Source of the DNA: Phycisphaerales bacterium
Lineage (GTDB): Bacteria > Planctomycetota > Phycisphaerae > Phycisphaerales > SM1A02
Reading direction: 5' to 3'
Assembly (NCBI GenBank): GCA_029260575.1
Contig: JAJDDB010000004.1
Coordinates: 310,001-374,000 of the forward strand
DNA length: 64,000 nt
Shown here: one piece after another, positions 3,970 to 46,396 of the stretch
Numbering within the stretch: position 1 is the stretch's first letter
Layout of the letters: the number at the start of each line of letters is the position of its first letter
Position numbers and translations under genes: made by a program
The notes under the pieces: model-generated
Seen by the model: only the letters and a program-made list of their open reading frames with translations
Told to the model about the DNA's origin: nothing
Databases searched by the model: none

Positions 3970-4811
3970 TTTCACGTTGGCGCGCAATTTTGACATCTGT
4001 GCTGCTTAGTACGTTCTTTCTGGTTGCGTATGGAGCAACCAATTGGTTTACAGCAACGCGCGATGTGGACGCCGTATGGATGTATGAATGGGAACACCAC
4101 ATTCCATTCATTGCGCTCATGATTCTTCCATACATGTCCATTGATTTGTTCTTTGTTGCAGCACCGTTTGTGTGCTCCGATAGAGATGAGCTCCGAACTC
4201 TGATCCGGCGCATTGTGCTCGCAGTATCTGCAGCATGTACTATCTTTCTTATCATGCCTTTGAAAATGGGTATGGAACGCCCGGCCGCAGACGGCTGGCT
4301 CGGTGTTGTCTTCGACTGGTTCCGCTCAATGGATCAGCCGCACAATCTGTTTCCATCACTACACATCGCGCTGAGCGCGATTCTGCTTGCTGTGTATGCC
4401 CGTCATACTTCGGGACTGCTTCGCTGGATCACGATCGTCTGGTTCGGGTTCGTTGCCGCTTCGACACTTCTTACATACCAACATCATGTACTGGATGTTG
4501 TCGGCGGTCTGGCGCTTGGCATTGTCTGTATCTACATGTTCCCATATGCGCGATCGTCATCACAATCGTGTGCAAATCTTCGCGTTGCTGGGTATTACGC
4601 CCTGGGCGCTGTTGCGCTGCAAGTGGTTGCTGTTGCGTTTCGGGATCGATTGGGTTGGCTTATGCTTTGGCCGGCTACCGCCGTCGCGATTGTATGTGCC
4701 GGTTACTGCGGGATCGGTCCATCGATCTACCAGAAACACAACGGTCGGTTGTCACTGGCCGCTCGAATCCTTCTTGGCCCTTCCTTGCTCGGGCAATGGC
4801 TGTCCCGTTGA
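3966..4811 (+). CDS. PAP2-family membrane phosphatase, N-terminal part of a split PAP2/dual-specificity phosphatase
   Basis: 281 residues from a GTG at 3966 that overlaps the previous stop (GTGA). At least six hydrophobic segments, beginning with LTSVLLSTFFLVAYGATNWF. The PAP2 motifs are present: HNLFPSLHIALSA (PSxH) and LTYQHHVLDVVGG (the His/Asp of the third motif), so a phosphatidate or undecaprenyl/inositol-lipid phosphatase acting at the membrane is likely. It ends at a TGA (4809-4811), after which the same frame stays open through a linker (YYAKRNRPWDVVDE, STWIGRHLNEEEAQ) straight into the dual-specificity phosphatase below. In relatives these are one polypeptide (recalled), so this is probably one gene interrupted by a single nonsense codon. 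Confidence 0.85.
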   Translation: MISRWRAILTSVLLSTFFLVAYGATNWFTATRDVDAVWMYEWEHHIPFIALMILPYMSIDLFFVAAPFVCSDRDELRTLIRRIVLAVSAACTIFLIMPLKMGMERPAADGWLGVVFDWFRSMDQPHNLFPSLHIALSAILLAVYARHTSGLLRWITIVWFGFVAASTLLTYQHHVLDVVGGLALGIVCIYMFPYARSSSQSCANLRVAGYYALGAVALQVVAVAFRDRLGWLMLWPATAVAIVCAGYCGIGPSIYQKHNGRLSLAARILLGPSLLGQWLSR

Positions 4812-4874
4812 TATTACGCGAAACGAAACCGACCCTGGGACGTCGTTGATGAAAGCACGTGGATTGGACGGCAT

Positions 4875-5276
4875 TTGAATGAAGAGGAAGCGCAACACGC
4901 GAGTTTATCCGGCGTGACTGCTGTCATAGATCTTACATCCGAATTCAATGCGCCAAGGCAGTGGCAAACGATTCCATATCTGAATCTGCAAGTGCTGGAT
5001 CTCACCGCGCCAACCCAGGTGCAGATTCGATGCGCGCTCGAGTTCATCAGTAAACATGCACAAAATGGCATAGTGTATGTTCATTGCAAGGTTGGCTACT
5101 CCCGATCTGCCGTCATCGTCGGTGCGTCGCTCCTGTCGCGTGGACGTGCAGAAAATGTCAACGATGCACTCATGCAGCTTACTGAGATGCGGCCGGGTAT
5201 CGTCGTACGACCAGAAGCGGTCCGTGCGTTGATGACGTTTGAAGAAAGTCTCGTAGCGCACATCAACACAACGTAA
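4875..5276 (+). CDS. dual-specificity (tyrosine-type) phosphatase domain, C-terminal part of the split PAP2/DSP protein
   Basis: About 133 residues if started at the TTG at 4875. The cysteine-phosphatase loop is intact: YVHCKVGYSRSAVIVGA holds Cys-x5-Arg followed by Ser. An upstream general-acid loop is less clear. It shares the reading frame of the PAP2 gene, and no good independent start exists: the TTG lies inside the conserved stretch TWIGRHLNEEEA, has no Shine-Dalgarno, and the nearby ATGs (4850, 4879) are in other frames. Either the domain is made by reading through the TGA at 4809, or it is poorly expressed or a broken gene. Substrate unknown; related domains act on phosphoinositides, phosphatidylglycerol phosphate or phosphotyrosine. 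Confidence 0.75.
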   Translation: MNEEEAQHASLSGVTAVIDLTSEFNAPRQWQTIPYLNLQVLDLTAPTQVQIRCALEFISKHAQNGIVYVHCKVGYSRSAVIVGASLLSRGRAENVNDALMQLTEMRPGIVVRPEAVRALMTFEESLVAHINTT

Positions 5277-5349
5277 TAAAGCAACAATTCTTCGTCGATG
5301 AAATGCCGCATCCGATCAATGCAAGGGTATCGTTCGGCCAAGACATTTC

Positions 5350-6441
5350 TTAGCGTATTGATGTGTGTGCAGCAGATTCTCTTACATGGTCTTGAACATT
5401 TTCAAGCCCATCATTTGAATCCACATCGGTTACACCACGACCGATCGACCACGTGCCGTCTTCAAATCGCACTGTGCGGTCCATTGACGTGACGGTTCCC
5501 CGAAGAACATTCAAGCTGCCGTCGATTACAACCACGTCGAGTGATGGCGAAGCGATCGTGAATACATCGCGATGCAATTGTATTAAAGTTACAGTAGGGC
5601 CGGATGTAAACGTAAGTTGAAATCCGAGCCTGGCGTTGAAAATGCAGACGGGATCCGGATTTACACAATCTGCTACACGCCCGGCATGCTGCGGCATCAA
5701 CGTCAGGCGTGCTTCAGTTGGCTCCAGCACAACGTCGCCTCCAACGAATTGCACGTGATCTTGCATCCATTTGAGGATGTTCTCTTGAGCAGCATCAATC
5801 TGTGCAGATGTAATGGCCGAGCCAGTGACGTCGAGATGCGCCACCAACTGCTGGGCTATTTGAAGCGGAATATGCCACTCCACGATACATTTATCGCCCA
5901 CCTGTTCGACAAGAAGCAGTGGCTGATCGAACGGATTGGATGTGAGCAATGGCGCTGGCACGTATTGGCCACGAATGACGGCAAGATCAATCGTCTCCAC
6001 ATTGCCGCCGCTCGTCAGTGTAACTGCGGAATTGCGCAACGATCCTGCGCCGCTGCCGTATATTGCGAGTTTGAGTTGACGTGCCTGCTGCGCGAGTGGA
6101 CTACTGGGGCGTAGTATCATCGCGACAAAACGAACATCAATATCGAGCGGAACCGAGATCGAGAGATTCGTTGTTTCGACGTGCAGGCGCTCGCCATGCT
6201 CATTGTACATCAGCAACGAATCTGTCAACGCTCGGACGTACTGGTTTGCCGCATCCTTGGCTTGCGGGTGAATCGACGTGTGTCCAAGTACATGTTCGTT
6301 GATCTGCGGGTGCATTTCCAGCCTGTTCAAATGCACCACGACCTCAGCAAAATCCACCGCAACACTGTGGCCGTATGCCGGCACCACAGCGATAATCATT
6401 GCAATTACAAAAACAAGTTTCTCGCAGAATCTATTTCGCAA
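5350..6441 (-). CDS. exported protein of unknown function, last gene of the mannosidase operon
   Basis: 363 residues from a TTG at 6441 whose codon overlaps the end of the mannosidase gene (11 bases shared). The beginning RNRFCEKLVFVIAMIIAVV followed by PAYGHS looks like a signal peptide, so export is expected. An ATG at 6399 inside the hydrophobic core is a poorer start. The mature part has alternating strand-like segments (for example FAEVVVHLNRLEMHPQIN, TLTSGGNVETIDLAVIRG, LLLVEQVGDKCIVEWHIPL) and looks like one or two beta-sandwich domains. I do not recognise a family or catalytic motif. Being the last gene of the sugar-uptake/alpha-mannosidase operon, it may bind glycans or assist the mannosidase, but this is inference only. 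The frame continues upstream to 6843 inside the mannosidase gene; that extension is not coding. Confidence 0.7.
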   Translation of the reverse strand: MRNRFCEKLVFVIAMIIAVVPAYGHSVAVDFAEVVVHLNRLEMHPQINEHVLGHTSIHPQAKDAANQYVRALTDSLLMYNEHGERLHVETTNLSISVPLDIDVRFVAMILRPSSPLAQQARQLKLAIYGSGAGSLRNSAVTLTSGGNVETIDLAVIRGQYVPAPLLTSNPFDQPLLLVEQVGDKCIVEWHIPLQIAQQLVAHLDVTGSAITSAQIDAAQENILKWMQDHVQFVGGDVVLEPTEARLTLMPQHAGRVADCVNPDPVCIFNARLGFQLTFTSGPTVTLIQLHRDVFTIASPSLDVVVIDGSLNVLRGTVTSMDRTVRFEDGTWSIGRGVTDVDSNDGLENVQDHVRESAAHTSIR

Positions 6442-9400
6442 TGTCGATGTCCACCTCTGTAAAGAATGTTCCCTGTCCCATATCCTCCGCCACCCAAAGT
6501 AAGTATCGGTGAACTCCAATTGATGAAAGCTCCGACGCGTGGATGTCGCCGTTGCCGAGTTCGCGTGTGTCGACAACGCCAAGCAATTCCCAGCTTTCGT
6601 TGTCGCCGTGCGAGAACGTCGCATCCGGCAGCGAGTCGCCGGATGCGCCCCATACCGAAAAGTATTGCGGAGCACGGTTACTTCGGTGCCATGAGTATGT
6701 TCGCACGTATTGAATGTCGCGCGCTGCTCCGAGATCAACATAGAAACGACCTGCATTGTCATACCACACGCAACGCTGCGTATCATCATCATTGCGCGCG
6801 AGTTGGCCATCATTGAGGCGAGGCAGCATGTCGGAGACTGCACCAGAACCCGGGTGCGGGCTCCACGCTCCCATATTGTCGATGAAGCGAAAAGTTAGGT
6901 CGACAGCATCGTCATTCGCAACGGGCGCAGCGATTGAAAGTCTGTTGAATGACTGACCGCGCGCAGTTGTTGCTGTTGTGCGTGGTGTCACTCCTTCGAA
7001 CACCGGAACAGCTGTCTGTTGATACGTGTGTCGCAACTCAATCTGGTCTGTTCCATCAAATGCGTCATACAAAAGAGCAGCGGGGCGGGTCTGCGCATTC
7101 GGATCATCCGCAACCGTCATTGCAAAGATGCGAATGTGCGGATCGTTGGGAAGGGTAAGCGTGTGGTCAGATTCATTGAGCCGAATGTGGTATCGAAACA
7201 AATACGAGAATCGATAGGGATCATTACCCTTCGATGCGTCGTGCCGATGCGTGCAGAACCACGCAATGGGATCGCGCTTAATGTATGCGGGTTCAATGCC
7301 GATGACGTTACCCACGCAGCGATAATCAACTTCTTCAAATGGGCGGTCCCACGTTCTGTTGTACCACTGGCCGACGAAATCCGTCCACGACTGGATCGTC
7401 AGTTCGTGCGACGTTGTCTCGGTTGTAAATGAAGCGGTTCGATCCTCCGTCGCCGCTGCAAGAATGTAGAGATCGCGCATGTCTCCTTCGTGAATTGCAA
7501 TATCTTGCCCCCGGCAGGTGAGAGCATTGAATGCATTTCCCGCACTTGGCCCAAGTACGAAGGGAATGTCGTTGAAAACGAGCGATTCGGGCAGCATTTC
7601 TCCGGGTATGGATTTGCCCGAGCCGTCCATCGATGCGCCTCCAACATCATCATCACCTGTCGTCACATCAGTATCGAACGGCAGGTCGATGATCTGCGCA
7701 CGAGGCGGCGACAATTCGGCATTCGGTTCGCGCAATTTTATCGCAAACGAATGTGGACTGTACGGCTTCATGTCAAGACGCAAACGTCCATCATGTACGT
7801 CAGCAGCGCCAATGATTCGTTCCTGTCCGTCAACCTCTCGCGCTTCAAGAATCGGTTTGACGAAACTGACTTGCACGTCATCCGCAGGTAATCCCCAAAG
7901 TTCCTGCAGCCGAACGATGATCCAATCTGATTGCTCAGCAACTTTGATCGCGCGGATATCAACCTGTCCGGTGTTTACTGTTGCGAACGAGAACTGCCGT
8001 TGTAACTGACCACTGCGCCGCGTAGTTTGAAACGAACGCAAAGGCTGATTGATGCGCCTGCCGTACCACTCGGTTCCGCTGGTGCGCCAATCACCACTGT
8101 GCGGATAGATGCCGTAGGTTATCTGGTGCCGGCCCCAGTCCTGGGAGTGCTGATCAAGGTAACCATTGCGCACGCCGGGTGTGTACAGCAACGTCAATCG
8201 AATTTCATCAGGCGACGGTTTATCGGAGCCATACTTGGAATCTTCAATGATCGAAACGCCATAGGAATGGTCAGGCGATGTAAGATCAATCCACTCGTGC
8301 GATGGAACTTCATATTTGCGCGGGTCATTGTTACCGCGCTGTACGGTGCCAAGGCCCCAGTTGTATGTCGCCATGTCATTGCGCACTTTGAGCGGAAAAC
8401 TGGCCTTGAGCGCGCATTCGGTCGATTGCCAGTCGATATCAGCGTCGATTTGTACGACGCGTCCGAAGTCACCCGCGCAGAGACTAATGCGTTGGGTAAT
8501 GAACGAGTTGCGTGCAGCCCGTGAGACTTCAATCGTCGCGCGCACCGGCCCACGTTCGACAACCCGGATGCGTGCCGGGCCATCAACGTAGCCACTCGGC
8601 GGGCGCTGCCGGTCGTTCCAGTCCATATTCCAGGCTGGCCATTGCTGTGGCATTTCGTATGTAAACGCAAGCCTGGACGGTTGCGACAGAACCTCACGCT
8701 TCGCCTGTTTGTCGAAGATCGATGCGATGTCTCCAGCGTCGTTGACTGTCACGCGCAGGAATTCGTTCTCGAGCGTGCGATCTGTGACCTGCAAGAGTCC
8801 TGCCGCCTCCAACGACCGTGCCGGACGAACATCGAACACTGAAAAACTGTTCGGTTCGACAGGCGCCACGAAGAGAATTGTCACACGCTGTTGATCCCGT
8901 GCGATGAGCTGCGCAAGTGTTTCTCGGCCGTCAGGTCCGAACACGCGCACCGCGGCGGGGATTTGCTGATCAGGGCCGAATTGCACACGGGCTTCAACAA
9001 CATCGTTGCGCGCGATCGCAAGTGGGTTTACGACAACAATCGGCACACCTTCGGTATCAGTATCAAGAGCGCGAGCAACCCCGCCGGTCGCATGCGTCAG
9101 CACCGAAGCGAACCCGTTCAGTGCAATAATCTCGTCGTTCCATGAATACGTGTACGCCCGGGGAATACTCGTGCCCGGCAGAATATCATGCATCTGATTG
9201 GCAAGAAAGCGCACCCACGAGCGCTCGAGTTGCTTGCGTGGATATTGCATCGCGCCCAGCCACGACGCAGCGACCGCAGCACGCTCAGCAGCATCTGCAA
9301 GTTGCTCGCACTGACGATTCCAGCGCTTCATGTACGACTGACTCGTCAGCGTGCCCGCAGAGTGCTCTGTCAAAAGCAGATCACCCTTATACCGAGGCAG

Positions 9401-40738: not shown

Positions 40739-42451
40739 ATGGAAAGGCCGCAAGTGAGGACGATCGCGATCGTCAACCAAAAGGGCGGAAGTGGCAAGAC
40801 CACAACGGCCATCAATCTCGCTGCGGTCTACGCCCAGCGCGGCCATCGCACGTTGCTCATCGATATCGATCCTCAGGGGCATTGCGCAGCCGGCCTCGGC
40901 GTACCCGAACACCGAATCGAACGCGGGATTGCTGACGGCCTGCTGGCCGATCACAACAGCCCGAAATTCAAGCCCGAAGATCTGCTCTGGGAAGTATCGC
41001 GCAATCTGATGTTGATGCCCAGCACAGTCCGCCTGGCTGCGATGGAAGCGCCGGGTGGCGGTCTACATGAACTGGAAGATCGCGATCGTCGCCTACTGAG
41101 TTTGCTCTCGAAATTCGATGGCATGTTTGATCGATGTCTGATCGACTGCCCACCGACCATCGGCCTGCTGACGTACAACGCCATGCGCGCATCGCGTGAG
41201 ACGCTGATTCCCGTCGAGACCGGATACCTCGCGATGAAAGGTGCTGAGCGACAATGGCAGACCATTCGCAGCCTAGTGGAGCGCATCGACCGTGCGATCG
41301 CTGTGCATCTGCTGCCGACGATTCATAAGGATGAAAGCCGAATTGCCCGGGATGTACTGGCAGCGCTGCAGCGGAAATTTGCCGGCCAGATTCTCCCTGC
41401 GGTGATTCACGATCACGAGCAGTTGCGCGAAGCTGTCAGTTTCGGCCAACCGATCACCGAATTCGATCCGCACTCCAAAGCCCGGCAGGATTTCGAGCGC
41501 CTCGCTGAATGGCTCGAACAACACCAGCCGCCGCCGAATTATCGTACATCGCAAACGCCACAGGAACCGATCGCAGATTCACCACCGCGTGTGGTGGATA
41601 TGCGATCCGCAACGCCGTCAATTTCCGCTTCGACGTCGATTCCTGCATCAAGCCGCGTGGCGGAACTCGTCCGACGCGTACAGGCGATCGCCGAACGGAA
41701 TGCCCAGCTCGAGAAGAACGTAAATACGGCACTCAGTGACGTGCCGCCGGTCTTGTGCAGCGATCCAACCGTCTCCGAGCCCTCGCCACCGGCAATCGAA
41801 ACCATCCGAAAGCAGGATTGCCTTATTAATGTGACAATCCCTGTGTCGCGTGAGGACGAATCGAACGAAGTCCGTCCGATGGCTGAGACTTCATCTGTTG
41901 TGTTTGACGATGCACTAGAGACGCTAGATACACCGACCGCCTGTCGTATGCATGAGGTGCCTTCATGCAGCCGCGATGCCGATTCAGATTCGACGATCGA
42001 TGCATCGCCACCGCTGGTTGTCCAAACAAAGCCGCAGTCAACATGTATCAGCCAGCCGCTCAGCAACGCCATTCATCTGTTTGGCGTTCGTCCCACTGCA
42101 ACGGGCGTGCTATTCGTGCAACCCGCCGGTTCATCCCGATCGATCCACGTTGCCGGCGATTTCAACAACTGGTCGTCGACGAACAATCCTTTGCGACGCA
42201 ACGACAAACTTGGCGTCTATGAAGCAGTTATCCCCATTGTTCCCGGCAGACACCAGTATCGACTGATCATTGACGGCGTCTGGCAGGCTGACCCGTACAA
42301 TCCACATAAGCAACGCAATGATTACGGCGAACCCAACAGTGTCCTCACGATCGAACCGGCGCCTCCGTGCAAGCCGCCGGTTGCGCCCGCGCCGCAGACT
42401 GTCATCGCTCGTGCCCCGAGCGTCGCAGACACATTGCAGCAGGCGTGGTGA
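40739..42451 (+). CDS. ParA-type ATPase fused to a C-terminal glycogen-binding (AMPK-beta/CBM48) domain
   Basis: 570 residues from the ATG at 40739. Residues 8-260 form a ParA/Soj ATPase: deviant Walker [21 protein letters not shown] (Lys15 and Lys20), [36 protein letters not shown] and [20 protein letters not shown] linker of about 190 residues, rich in Pro, Ser and acidic residues, contains one coiled-coil-like stretch ([20 protein letters not shown]). Residues 456-538 are a glycogen-binding E-set domain: [58 protein letters not shown] with the expected Trp residues. ParA proteins move or space cargoes on a nucleoid or membrane surface; the fused domain points to a polyglucan as cargo or anchor. 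The next gene, a MinD-like protein, is likely its partner. Confidence 0.9.
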
Positions 42452-42553
42452 GTACAACATCAGTAAGTGGGTTCGCCGGGCAACTGTTGATGAGAATGAA
42501 ACCAACAATGCGCGCACATGCACAGCGCAGTGAAGAAGAAGGCGGGGATTGAG

Positions 42554-44038
42554 ATGCCCAGGACCGCAGATCCATACGACGAGCTTGCCGCAATGTTCCT
42601 GACACAACCGGACCAACCAGGCCACGGCGACGAACGTACGACATCCTCCATAATCGAACTGCTGGTGGTCGGCCATCTGCCTGTTCGCGCCGGCTTGTGG
42701 CTGACGCCCTATGCCGATGCATGCGCTCGCGAACATGGACCGACCGCGCTGCTTCGCCTGGATCGTGATGAACCGGTTCTGCAGATTCTCCGCGGCGCAG
42801 ACACCGATGCCGTCCCCCCGGCAGGCGGAACCCTCCGCGACACGATCAGAGCGGTGGCAGGCAACATTACCAGCTGGATCGTCTATGCCGGTGGCACAGC
42901 AACCGCAGCCGATCTCGTCCGCCCGCAGCCGGATCGCATCACTGTCCTGTCCAGCGCTGATGACGCCGCAGTCGTGGGCGCGTATCAACACGTAAAGAAT
43001 CTGGTAAACGCAGCTGAATCCGAGCAGACCAAACTGCCGAAAGTCACGCTCGCAGTTCTCGGCGCCGATGAAACAGCCGCCTCGCGCGTCTTTGATCGTG
43101 TCAATAGAACCACAACCGCGTTCCTCGGCGTCGATGTCGAACTCAGCTCCGTCATCCAGCGCATGGATGCCGGCGTTCGATCAACCAGTTATGTCAACTT
43201 CCCCGGCGAAACATCGCCGACAGCCGAGGACATAGTCAAGCTGATCCAACAGGCACCAACCACAGCGCCGCCGCAGACAACAGCGCAACCAGTTGCCCCG
43301 GTCGAATCTCATTCTGCCGATCTGCACGGCATTGGTGAAGCGACTGATGCGACTGAACCGACTCGCCTTTCGTCCGATGAGCGTGAACTGCTGCATCAAC
43401 AATCCGCGCCTGCCGAACCAGTCGCCCAACCTGCTGTCGAGCAACCCGAACAACCCAATGCATCGCAGCAGCCGGCAGTTCATGATGGGCGTGACGCCGA
43501 TGTGCAGCGTCCGCTGGTTGAATACGTCGCGTATGCAGAAACTCCGCAAGCCCAGCAATTGCGGGAGCAGCAACAGTTTGCACAGACCCATCAACGGCGA
43601 CCTGCACGAGTTGTCCCGCGCCCGCACATGGAAGTCGAACCGAAGAAACCCGACGCTGCCCGTGAACCCAATGATCGTGGCAAGCCGGTGCAGCTTGCAT
43701 CACATGTACACGATCTCACGCCGATCGTGCCGCGCTGCCCCGGAAGAGAGCGCGTCGAGCTTGCAGTGGGGCGATTCGGCCGCGTGCATCTGCTTGGCAA
43801 AGAAGACACGATGCGCGAAATGCGCGTCGTCGAATCATGGGTCCGTGCGCATTGCGAGTTGCTTGCTATGGCGTGTCCGGACGTGACGATTGATCCCGCC
43901 GCCCGGCCGGTCTGCCACGTCTTTACCGACACCCCGGCAGAGCTTGCAGACATGCACGGCTGCGATGTCAAACTCCACGTGCTCGCGCCCGTTCAGGTCA
44001 ACGGCGAAACCGCCTGGTACGCCGCGCCACTGAACTGA
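42554..44038 (+). CDS. MinD/FlhG-like protein with degenerate P-loop, partner of the ParA fusion
   Basis: 494 residues from the ATG at 42554, preceded by an AGGCGGGGA purine stretch; an in-frame ATG at 42518 has none. The N-terminal half follows the MinD/FlhG fold in order: first strand and P-loop position IIELLVVGHLPVRAGLWLTPY, where GKGGVGKT is replaced; LLRLDRDEPV; ITSWIVYAGG; ITVLSSADDAAVVGAYQHVK; VTLAVLGADETAASRVFDRV; FLGVDVELSSVIQRMDAGVR. The last three match the FlhG segment that follows nucleotide binding (xxxAYxxxK, VNxxxSxxEAxxVFxRL, FLGxxLxxxGxI). The C-terminal half is a Pro/Gln-rich linker and a conserved domain (GRFGRVHLLGKEDTMREMRV, FTDTPAELADMHGCDVKLHV). It probably does not bind ATP and may regulate or bridge the upstream ParA. 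Ends in a terminator 30 bases on. Confidence 0.75.
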   Translation: MPRTADPYDELAAMFLTQPDQPGHGDERTTSSIIELLVVGHLPVRAGLWLTPYADACAREHGPTALLRLDRDEPVLQILRGADTDAVPPAGGTLRDTIRAVAGNITSWIVYAGGTATAADLVRPQPDRITVLSSADDAAVVGAYQHVKNLVNAAESEQTKLPKVTLAVLGADETAASRVFDRVNRTTTAFLGVDVELSSVIQRMDAGVRSTSYVNFPGETSPTAEDIVKLIQQAPTTAPPQTTAQPVAPVESHSADLHGIGEATDATEPTRLSSDERELLHQQSAPAEPVAQPAVEQPEQPNASQQPAVHDGRDADVQRPLVEYVAYAETPQAQQLREQQQFAQTHQRRPARVVPRPHMEVEPKKPDAAREPNDRGKPVQLASHVHDLTPIVPRCPGRERVELAVGRFGRVHLLGKEDTMREMRVVESWVRAHCELLAMACPDVTIDPAARPVCHVFTDTPAELADMHGCDVKLHVLAPVQVNGETAWYAAPLN

Positions 44039-44067
44039 ACTCAGAAACAAACGTAATCCCCCAAAAG

Positions 44068-44100
44068 CCCAGCATCCCCCGATGCTGGGTTTCTTTTTCT
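44068..44100 (+). terminator. rho-independent terminator, probably bidirectional
   Basis: Nine-base perfect stem CCCAGCATC / GATGCTGGG with a loop of four C, then TTTCTTTTTCT. It closes the ParA/MinD-like operon. The converging gene that ends at 44127 may use it in the other direction, where a weaker T-run (CTTTTGG) follows. Confidence 0.92.
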
Positions 44101-45247: not shown

Positions 45248-46396
45248 ATGAGCCGTTCCATTGCACCGTTGTTCACAGTCGTTCTCGCTGCGGTCCTGTT
45301 GCTGGCGGGTCTTGCCCAGGCCCAGGATGGCCGCAACCCCAGGCGTCCTGATCGCCAACCGCAGCAACGTGGCGAACGCGGCCCTCAGCGCGGCGGCCAG
45401 CAGATGTTTACAGTCGATCCGGACAAAGATCCGGTCCTCAAGACGATCCGGGCAGCTGTCGAGCCGACTGATGAACAGATGGATGTGATTACGGCTGCGT
45501 TCATCAAGCTGCGCGCCGATCAGGAAAAAGCGTTTACAGAATTCAGAGCTGCGCAAATGTCGCAGCGCGGCGAACGTGGTCCGCGGGGTGAACCCGGAGC
45601 ACGCGGTCAGCAGGGCAAACGTGGTCAACGCGGTGAATCTGACGCACGCCGAGAACACGGCGAACGCGGCGATGGCAATGGGCGCGCCCAGCGCGAGCAG
45701 ATGATGCAGAAACTCAATGCAGCATTTGAACCACTCAATGCGCAGTTTATGGCTGACTGTCGCGTCATACTCAATGATGATCAACATGCAGCATGGAATG
45801 CCTGCGCAGCTGACCTGAATCTCAGCCCAATGCGCAGCAGACAAGCACGCGATGCAGGCGGCCCGGCAGTCGGTGATGCTGCACCCGACTTCAACATTCT
45901 CACAACAACAGGCGATGCGGTGAAACTGAAATCGCTGCTCGACAAGCCAACGGTCATCGAGTTTGCCAGCTACACCTGCCCGATCTTCCGCAGCAAGATC
46001 GACAAGATGGCAGCCCTGCGCGAGCAGTTCGGCGATCGGATCAACTACATCATTATTTACACAAAGGAAGCCCACGCGTCCGACGGCAGGCGGCCTGTGC
46101 AGCGAAACACTGATGCGGGAATCGACATCCATCAGCACACATCATTCCAGCAGCGCCTCCAAGCCGCCCAGCGCATGCAGTCGGACCTCGACCTGAATGT
46201 GACAATCCTGGTTGACAGCTTCGATGATGATGTCACGAATGCCTACAACGGCCATCCGAATCGCGGATATGTCATCGACTTGGACGGCAAAGTTCGCTCG
46301 CGACAGGTCTGGATTGATGCCGACGCCACGCGCAAGACGCTGGAAACGCTGCTCAAGACTGAAGCAGCCAGCGCATCGCCTGCGGGGGAAATCTAA
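45248..46396 (+). CDS. exported redoxin, iodothyronine-deiodinase-like, with a collagen-like Gly-x-y tract
   Basis: 382 residues. AGGAG precedes the ATG. A signal peptide ends in GLAQAQDG. Residues 108-131 are eight consecutive Gly-x-y triplets (GERGPRGEPGARGQQGKRGQ and GES), rich in Arg. They interrupt a helical region (VEPTDEQMDVITAAFIKLRA; EQMMQKLNAAFEPLNAQFMA) that looks like an exported heavy-metal/LTXXQ-like helical pair. From residue 210 a thioredoxin-fold domain: VGDAAPDFNILTT, VIEFASYTCPIFRSKIDKMA with Cys244, NYIIIYTKEAHASDGRRPVQ. The last strings match iodothyronine deiodinases, in which the Cys position is selenocysteine and the motif is EAHPSDGW. Likely an extracytoplasmic thiol oxidoreductase; a deiodinase activity is not implied. 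Confidence 0.85.
   Translation: MSRSIAPLFTVVLAAVLLLAGLAQAQDGRNPRRPDRQPQQRGERGPQRGGQQMFTVDPDKDPVLKTIRAAVEPTDEQMDVITAAFIKLRADQEKAFTEFRAAQMSQRGERGPRGEPGARGQQGKRGQRGESDARREHGERGDGNGRAQREQMMQKLNAAFEPLNAQFMADCRVILNDDQHAAWNACAADLNLSPMRSRQARDAGGPAVGDAAPDFNILTTTGDAVKLKSLLDKPTVIEFASYTCPIFRSKIDKMAALREQFGDRINYIIIYTKEAHASDGRRPVQRNTDAGIDIHQHTSFQQRLQAAQRMQSDLDLNVTILVDSFDDDVTNAYNGHPNRGYVIDLDGKVRSRQVWIDADATRKTLETLLKTEAASASPAGEI

Follow-up and report, generated by a model that had tools for sequence, protein, structure and literature searches.

A ParA-type ATPase with a predicted glucan-binding domain and its FlhG-like partner in Phycisphaerae and other bacteria

The window analysed here is a stretch of 64,000 nucleotides from a Phycisphaerales bacterium (assembly GCA_029260575.1, contig JAJDDB010000004.1, positions 310,001 to 374,000). 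Two adjacent open reading frames (ORFs) of this window, ORF1 and ORF2, are the subject of this report. ORF1 joins a ParA ATPase to a carbohydrate-binding module (CBM) of the CBM48/AMPK beta type, and ORF2 has the predicted fold of FlhG without its P-loop. Our results indicate that ParAs fused in this way are one distinct subfamily, apart from Soj; this subfamily is found in several phyla and nearly always keeps the two tryptophans that contact glucan in AMPK. We tentatively propose, at a probability of roughly 0.4, that ORF1 and ORF2 act as a ParA system that positions or partitions, with alpha-glucan as its cargo or anchoring site and ORF2 as the adaptor.

The fused ParA subfamily and its glucan-binding domain

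The initial annotation described ORF1 as a normal ParA ATPase joined to a CBM48/AMPK beta-type domain, and profile searches bear this out. In Pfam, residues 7-187 match AAA_31 (PF13614, E 1.4e-39), residues 465-540 match AMPK1_CBM (PF16561, E 1.8e-10, 41.3 bits against a cut-off of 26.8) and residues 448-520 match CBM_48 (PF02922, E 1.9e-7, 31.7 bits against a cut-off of 22.4); CbiA is also matched (E 2e-18). All four exceed the curated cut-offs, and the CBM48 match is significant. In PHROG, ORF1 matches a ParA-like partition protein (E 6e-44). By its sequence and catalytic residues, ORF1 is a member of the ParA/MinD kind.

The catalytic residues of the ATPase (KGGxGKT[ST] with the signature lysine, the Walker A' aspartates and Walker B) are invariant in the fused ParAs of all groups. 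Two signatures set the subfamily off from Soj: KGGCGKTT takes the place of KGGVGKTT, and KL[KR]EA that of RL[AS]EAP. As a scan of named genomes used the pattern NQKGGCGK, the first of the two is free of bias only in the searches by class and phylum. ORF1 of the window itself reads KGGSGKTT. In a maximum-likelihood tree of 86 ParA domains, Soj-type and fused ParAs are split by a branch with support of 100/98, and a single origin of the fusion in all groups is possible. The genome that carries ORF1 also encodes a separate Soj, FlhF-FlhG and Mrp, which makes the ParA of ORF1 an additional one.

A ParA orthologue was found in 124 of the 198 genomes sampled from the class, and the fusion in 117 of the 198, the proxy being an open frame of sufficient length. 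This class is Phycisphaerae, given that records named Phycisphaerales, Sedimentisphaerales and Phycisphaerae sit inside its clade in the tree. Hidden Markov models detected the CBM in 65/74 distinct class orthologues examined as loci. In Omnitrophota, the fusion occurs in at least 105 of 193 genomes, by a hand count of matches running from residue 1 or 2 to at least residue 358 of a 362-residue fusion. The scan of named genomes also met the fusion in Omnitrophota and added single genomes of Auribacterota (Auribacter), Rokubacteria, Latescibacterota, Myxococcota and Gammaproteobacteria (Thiogranum). The linker between the two domains is 22-193 aa long in the class and mostly 7-46 aa in Omnitrophota.

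The best solved relatives of the ORF1 CBM are AMPK beta subunits (AMPK beta-1, 1z0m, 3.1e-9), with GlgB behind at 3e-3. In AMPK beta-1, W100, K126, W133, L146 and T148 contact the sugar and every mutation tested lowered glycogen binding, for which W100 and W133 are needed (PMC2642990). Numbered by AMPK beta-1, the 65 class CBMs have W100 in 64, W133 in 59 and N150 in 53 cases, while position 126 is arginine in 64 and position 146 is phenylalanine or tyrosine, not leucine, in 54. Both tryptophans are present in 42/42 CBMs of Omnitrophota, in which position 126 is K, R or Q, and in 10/10 CBMs of other groups. Retention of the aromatic ligand-binding residues in homologues, on which the initial annotation had made its proposal depend, is therefore found. 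The family differs from AMPK beta in being attached to a ParA instead of a kinase complex and in having F/Y at position 146; in common with it are W100, W133, a residue 126 that is mostly K/R, and N150 as N/D. This pattern of residues makes it likely that the ORF1 CBM binds glucan. Phycisphaerae also encode many small stand-alone AMPK1_CBM proteins, in frames of about 95-140 aa.

The FlhG-like partner

As a single sequence, ORF2 gave no match in Pfam or NCBIfam. A family profile built from alignment A1 (44 sequences) matched, from sequence alone, the solved structures of FlhG (4rz2/4rz3, 2.1e-11) and FleN (1.3e-6), and hhalign paired the ORF2 family with the FlhG of its own genome over 122 columns at a probability of 95.8 %. 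The AlphaFold (AF2) model has a core with a predicted local distance difference test score (pLDDT) above 90, and its best Foldseek matches are the same two FlhG structures (5e-6). The P-loop pattern is absent from every family member tested. Profile, hhalign and Foldseek thus agree with the initial annotation, which had read ORF2 as an FlhG/MinD fold with a lost P-loop, and ORF2 is best viewed as a putative, catalytically dead descendant of FlhG. Outside the class, the partner at locus L135 matches CbiA above its cut-off and reads TSGKGVRGKT at the P-loop position; it looks like an intermediate state. With FlhG/FleN, ORF2 shares the fold and the C-terminal half of the ATPase domain; unlike them, it has no P-loop, does not lie beside FlhF and possesses an extra N-terminal helix and an extra C-terminal domain resembling PD-(D/E)XK proteins. 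The FlhF-FlhG of the same genome is encoded elsewhere, and the neighbours of ORF1-ORF2 are not flagellar.

The ORF2 family adjoins ParA in 27 of 40 class neighbourhoods, so that the gene pair is conserved in other genomes; none of the loci sampled from families f7, f18, f19, f22 and f23 yielded a homologue. Outside the class, FlhG-like partners come after ParA in five loci (L135, L140, L143, L155, L263). Partners of unrelated build, namely the ORF2 of the class, the FlhG-like proteins found outside it and, in Omnitrophota, a transmembrane protein, have an N-terminal helix motif in common. The pattern [ILV][ASG]xx[FY][LFM] is present in 58/82 partner proteins versus 61/979 control ORFs, a count to be read as support and not as a test, as the pattern was picked once the sequences, which are related, had been inspected. 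In ParA/MinD systems, it is the N-terminus of the partner that binds the ATPase (PMC10241942).

ORF2 also carries a conserved C-terminal domain that the initial annotation did not describe. Folded alone, it reached an AF2 pLDDT of 91.6. Its best VIA-align rows are PD-(D/E)XK proteins (EndoMS at Z 6.4, SduA/Shedu, PaqCI and XisH), with modest Z values, and the best Foldseek E was 0.03. The D..(D/E)XK active site is not conserved in this domain in alignment A3. The same domain is a separate downstream gene at loci L134, L140, L151 and L155, as judged for L134 and L155 by position and alignment.

Alpha-glucan as cargo, anchoring site or signal

By analogy with ParA systems in general, ATP-bound dimers of ORF1 would coat the nucleoid, and the N-terminal helix of the partner (LAAMFL, ISHLFLS or LADLFL) would bind the ParA dimer and stimulate hydrolysis. 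The CBM may tie ParA to alpha-glucan, or to enzymes or granules decorated with alpha-glucan. Glucan-linked material might then be spaced or shared out, or ParA turnover might occur where the glucan is. Positioning ATPases of the ParA/MinD kind, such as McdAB for carboxysomes, have in common with this pair a deviant Walker A, a dedicated adjacent partner and a conserved N-terminal peptide in that partner (PMC10241942), which in the pair is a candidate for contact with the ATPase. The pair differs from McdAB-type systems in that the predicted glucan-binding domain is on the ATPase itself, the partner is a putative dead FlhG and the cargo is a proposed one.

Alpha-glucan enzymes adjoin the fusion in two phyla other than Planctomycetota. 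The conserved genes upstream of ParA-CBM in one Omnitrophota lineage (12 loci) include one for GH57 (PF03065, 2.8e-68). In Latescibacterota (locus L165), ParA-CBM is followed by two glycosyltransferases that resemble starch synthases and by a GH57 branching enzyme (1.9e-56). The genome of ORF1 encodes GlgB (978 bits). GlgA, which is common among bacteria, is above its cut-off in 11 of the 15 genomes searched outside Planctomycetota. The recognisable glycogen synthase of Phycisphaerae is of the GT3 type (PF05693, 89/198 genomes), with a GT5 GlgA above cut-off in 1/198. The Latescibacterota genome has no GlgA above cut-off, and its two GT4/GT5-like genes lie with the GH57 branching enzyme beside ParA-CBM at 4605-9124 of the locus.

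Several observations weigh against a glucan cargo or anchoring site. The GH57 neighbours in Omnitrophota count as one event, since they belong to a single syntenic block. The genome of ORF1, 95 % complete, gave no GT5, GT3 or TIGR02093 phosphorylase match. Within the class, neither the GT3 synthase (odds ratio 0.68, p 0.19) nor the branching enzyme (odds ratio 0.57, p 0.06) is associated with the fusion, both values being uncorrected for phylogeny, and the same holds for the GT5 GlgA and the phosphorylase. Class neighbourhoods hold no conserved glucan genes, are not conserved beyond ORF2 and yield no function. The T148 of AMPK is not retained, being mostly glutamate in the class, and position 126 is glutamine in 8 of 42 Omnitrophota CBMs. 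Moreover, seven class members retain ParA without the CBM, and six of these still have the ORF2 partner. In three genomes with a short ParA (G197, G185, G066), the absence of any PF16561 match identifies real losses of the CBM and rules out a split or frameshifted one; the short ParA of a fourth (G109) results from a broken frame, and the CBM persists downstream of it. The losses are nested among the fused ParAs in the tree. That the CBM was lost while ParA, mostly with its partner, stayed suggests a core function of ParA and partner to which the CBM is an accessory. The interpretation in the initial annotation is sustained in part: its domain calls, the gene pair, the terminator and the FlhG-like fold without P-loop are all borne out, and the positioning of glycogen that it put forward is possible. 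Glycogen synthase and branching enzyme do not occur together with the fusion in the class, but enzymes of alpha-glucan adjoin it in the two other phyla.

It is possible, with less probability than we give to a cargo or anchoring site, that the system is a glucan-controlled switch, in which the CBM works as an AMPK-like sensor and alpha-glucan or malto-oligosaccharides alter the ATPase cycle of ParA. The glucan would then be a signal and not a cargo, and the placement of DNA, division or envelope components would be coupled through the partner to carbon status. Glycogen inhibits AMPK allosterically via a domain of the same type (PMC2642990). The retention of both tryptophans in an AMPK-type CBM, the dispensability of the CBM while ParA and partner persist, and the likeness of the ORF2 C-terminal domain to DNA-binding nuclease folds all fit a switch, as does the position of some Omnitrophota genes between obg/proBA/nadD and mraZ-rsmH-ftsL-ftsI. 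The long and variable linker of the class, however, fits tethering better than allostery. Less probable is that the CBM48 fold was taken over for a protein-protein contact or another ligand and that the system positions an item other than glucan. The missing co-occurrence with synthase and branching enzyme, the lack of a recognised synthase in the genome of ORF1 and the class neighbourhoods devoid of glucan genes would suit such a takeover, but a scaffold role does not require the stacking tryptophans and the mostly basic residue 126 that are kept across phyla, and the GH57 and glycosyltransferase neighbours in two other phyla also argue against it.

Two further explanations appear improbable. 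A ParA akin to BcsQ, the ParA of cellulose synthesis, might assist a machine for polysaccharide synthesis or export at the envelope. ORF1 shares with BcsQ a ParA-like nature and a link to polysaccharide and matches its NCBIfam model TIGR03371 (E 2e-28); moreover, in one Omnitrophota lineage the genes just upstream encode a porin, the GH57 enzyme and a transmembrane protein whose end weakly resembles carbohydrate-binding domains. Membership of BcsQ was nevertheless rejected, as the 99.4 bits of the match are far below the equivalog cut-off of 157.85, and no cellulose synthesis genes were seen adjoining ORF1, nor any synthase or export genes adjoining the fusion in the class. Least probable of all, and very unlikely, is a ParA of chromosome or plasmid segregation that carries a CBM by chance. 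The ParA fold, the match to the PHROG partition protein and the ATPase domain held in common with Soj/ParA agree with segregation. Identity with the chromosomal ParAB was rejected on account of the separate Soj in the genome and of a neighbour that is FlhG-like instead of ParB; the signatures also differ, and the fused ParAs occupy their own branch.

Organisation of the locus and its significance

The features of the locus are collected in Table 1. ORF1 and ORF2 lie on the same strand, 66 bp apart, and are closed by a strong terminator, as had been noted initially. ORF2 probably starts at the ATG at 42554 rather than at 42518, given that its homologues begin just before the helix motif.

Table 1. 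Coordinates in the window of the ORF1-ORF2 locus and of its parts
Feature	Position	Strand	Basis
ORF1: ParA ATPase - linker - AMPK-type CBM48, 570 aa	40739..42451	+	Pfam matches, class-wide orthologues
ORF1, ParA ATPase domain: Walker A, DIDPQG Walker A', LIDCPP Walker B	40754..41530	+	residues invariant
ORF1, variable linker with a helical stretch resembling RAAELVxRAxxL of homologues	41531..42076	+	alignment A2
ORF1, CBM48 / AMPK beta-type predicted glucan-binding domain, contains GDFNNW	42080..42358	+	Pfam, PDB match 1z0m
ORF2: degenerate FlhG/MinD-like protein with C-terminal PD-(D/E)XK-like domain	42518..44038	+	family profile, AF2 model, Foldseek
ORF2, N-terminal helix motif DPYDELAAMFL, candidate ParA-binding peptide	42569..42601	+	motif count among partners
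ORF2, FlhG-like fold without P-loop; VVGHLPVRAGLWLTPY at the P-loop position	42650..43250	+	pattern check, model, Foldseek, hhalign
ORF2, C-terminal alpha/beta domain, PD-(D/E)XK-like, without active-site residues	43640..44035	+	AF2, VIA-align, alignment
Intrinsic terminator stem-loop 3' of ORF2, 12-pair stem and T-run	44065..44092	+	sequence

Further along the window, an ORF at 45248-46396 joins a Gly-rich, collagen-like stretch to a downstream part that resembles thioredoxin/peroxiredoxin, as judged by eye. In the Omnitrophota lineage with GH57 (loci L239-L257, L159 and L164), the recurring block consists of the porin (Alginate_exp, 1.5e-30), GH57, the transmembrane protein and ParA-CBM; the transmembrane protein has EIYEHLAxVYL at its N-terminus and a weak CBM30-like end. 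In another Omnitrophota lineage (L266, L271-L278), ParA-CBM lies between obg-proB-proA-nadD and mraZ-STAS-rsmH-ftsL-ftsI, a setting that could be a hint of the cell cycle or plain neighbourhood. A small MerR/BldC-like regulator is found upstream of ParA in three loci outside Planctomycetota (L140, L143, L155).

The known cargoes of ParA ATPases are DNA, protein organelles, chemotaxis arrays and flagella. No ParA-CBM48 system is described in the open literature searched, with subscription journals and preprints mostly outside its coverage, and neither a polysaccharide cargo nor polysaccharide sensing was found there for any ParA. The pair reported here might, with some doubt, be a ParA system with a polysaccharide cargo, in which the ATPase itself would hold alpha-glucan, a dead FlhG would serve as adaptor, and storage glucan would be spaced or shared out at division in several phyla. 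Hundreds of genomes encode the subfamily, its binding residues are conserved and its partner recurs, so that two questions can be put to a direct test: do bacteria use a ParA system to distribute or monitor their stored glucan, and what role may a dead FlhG play as the partner of a ParA?

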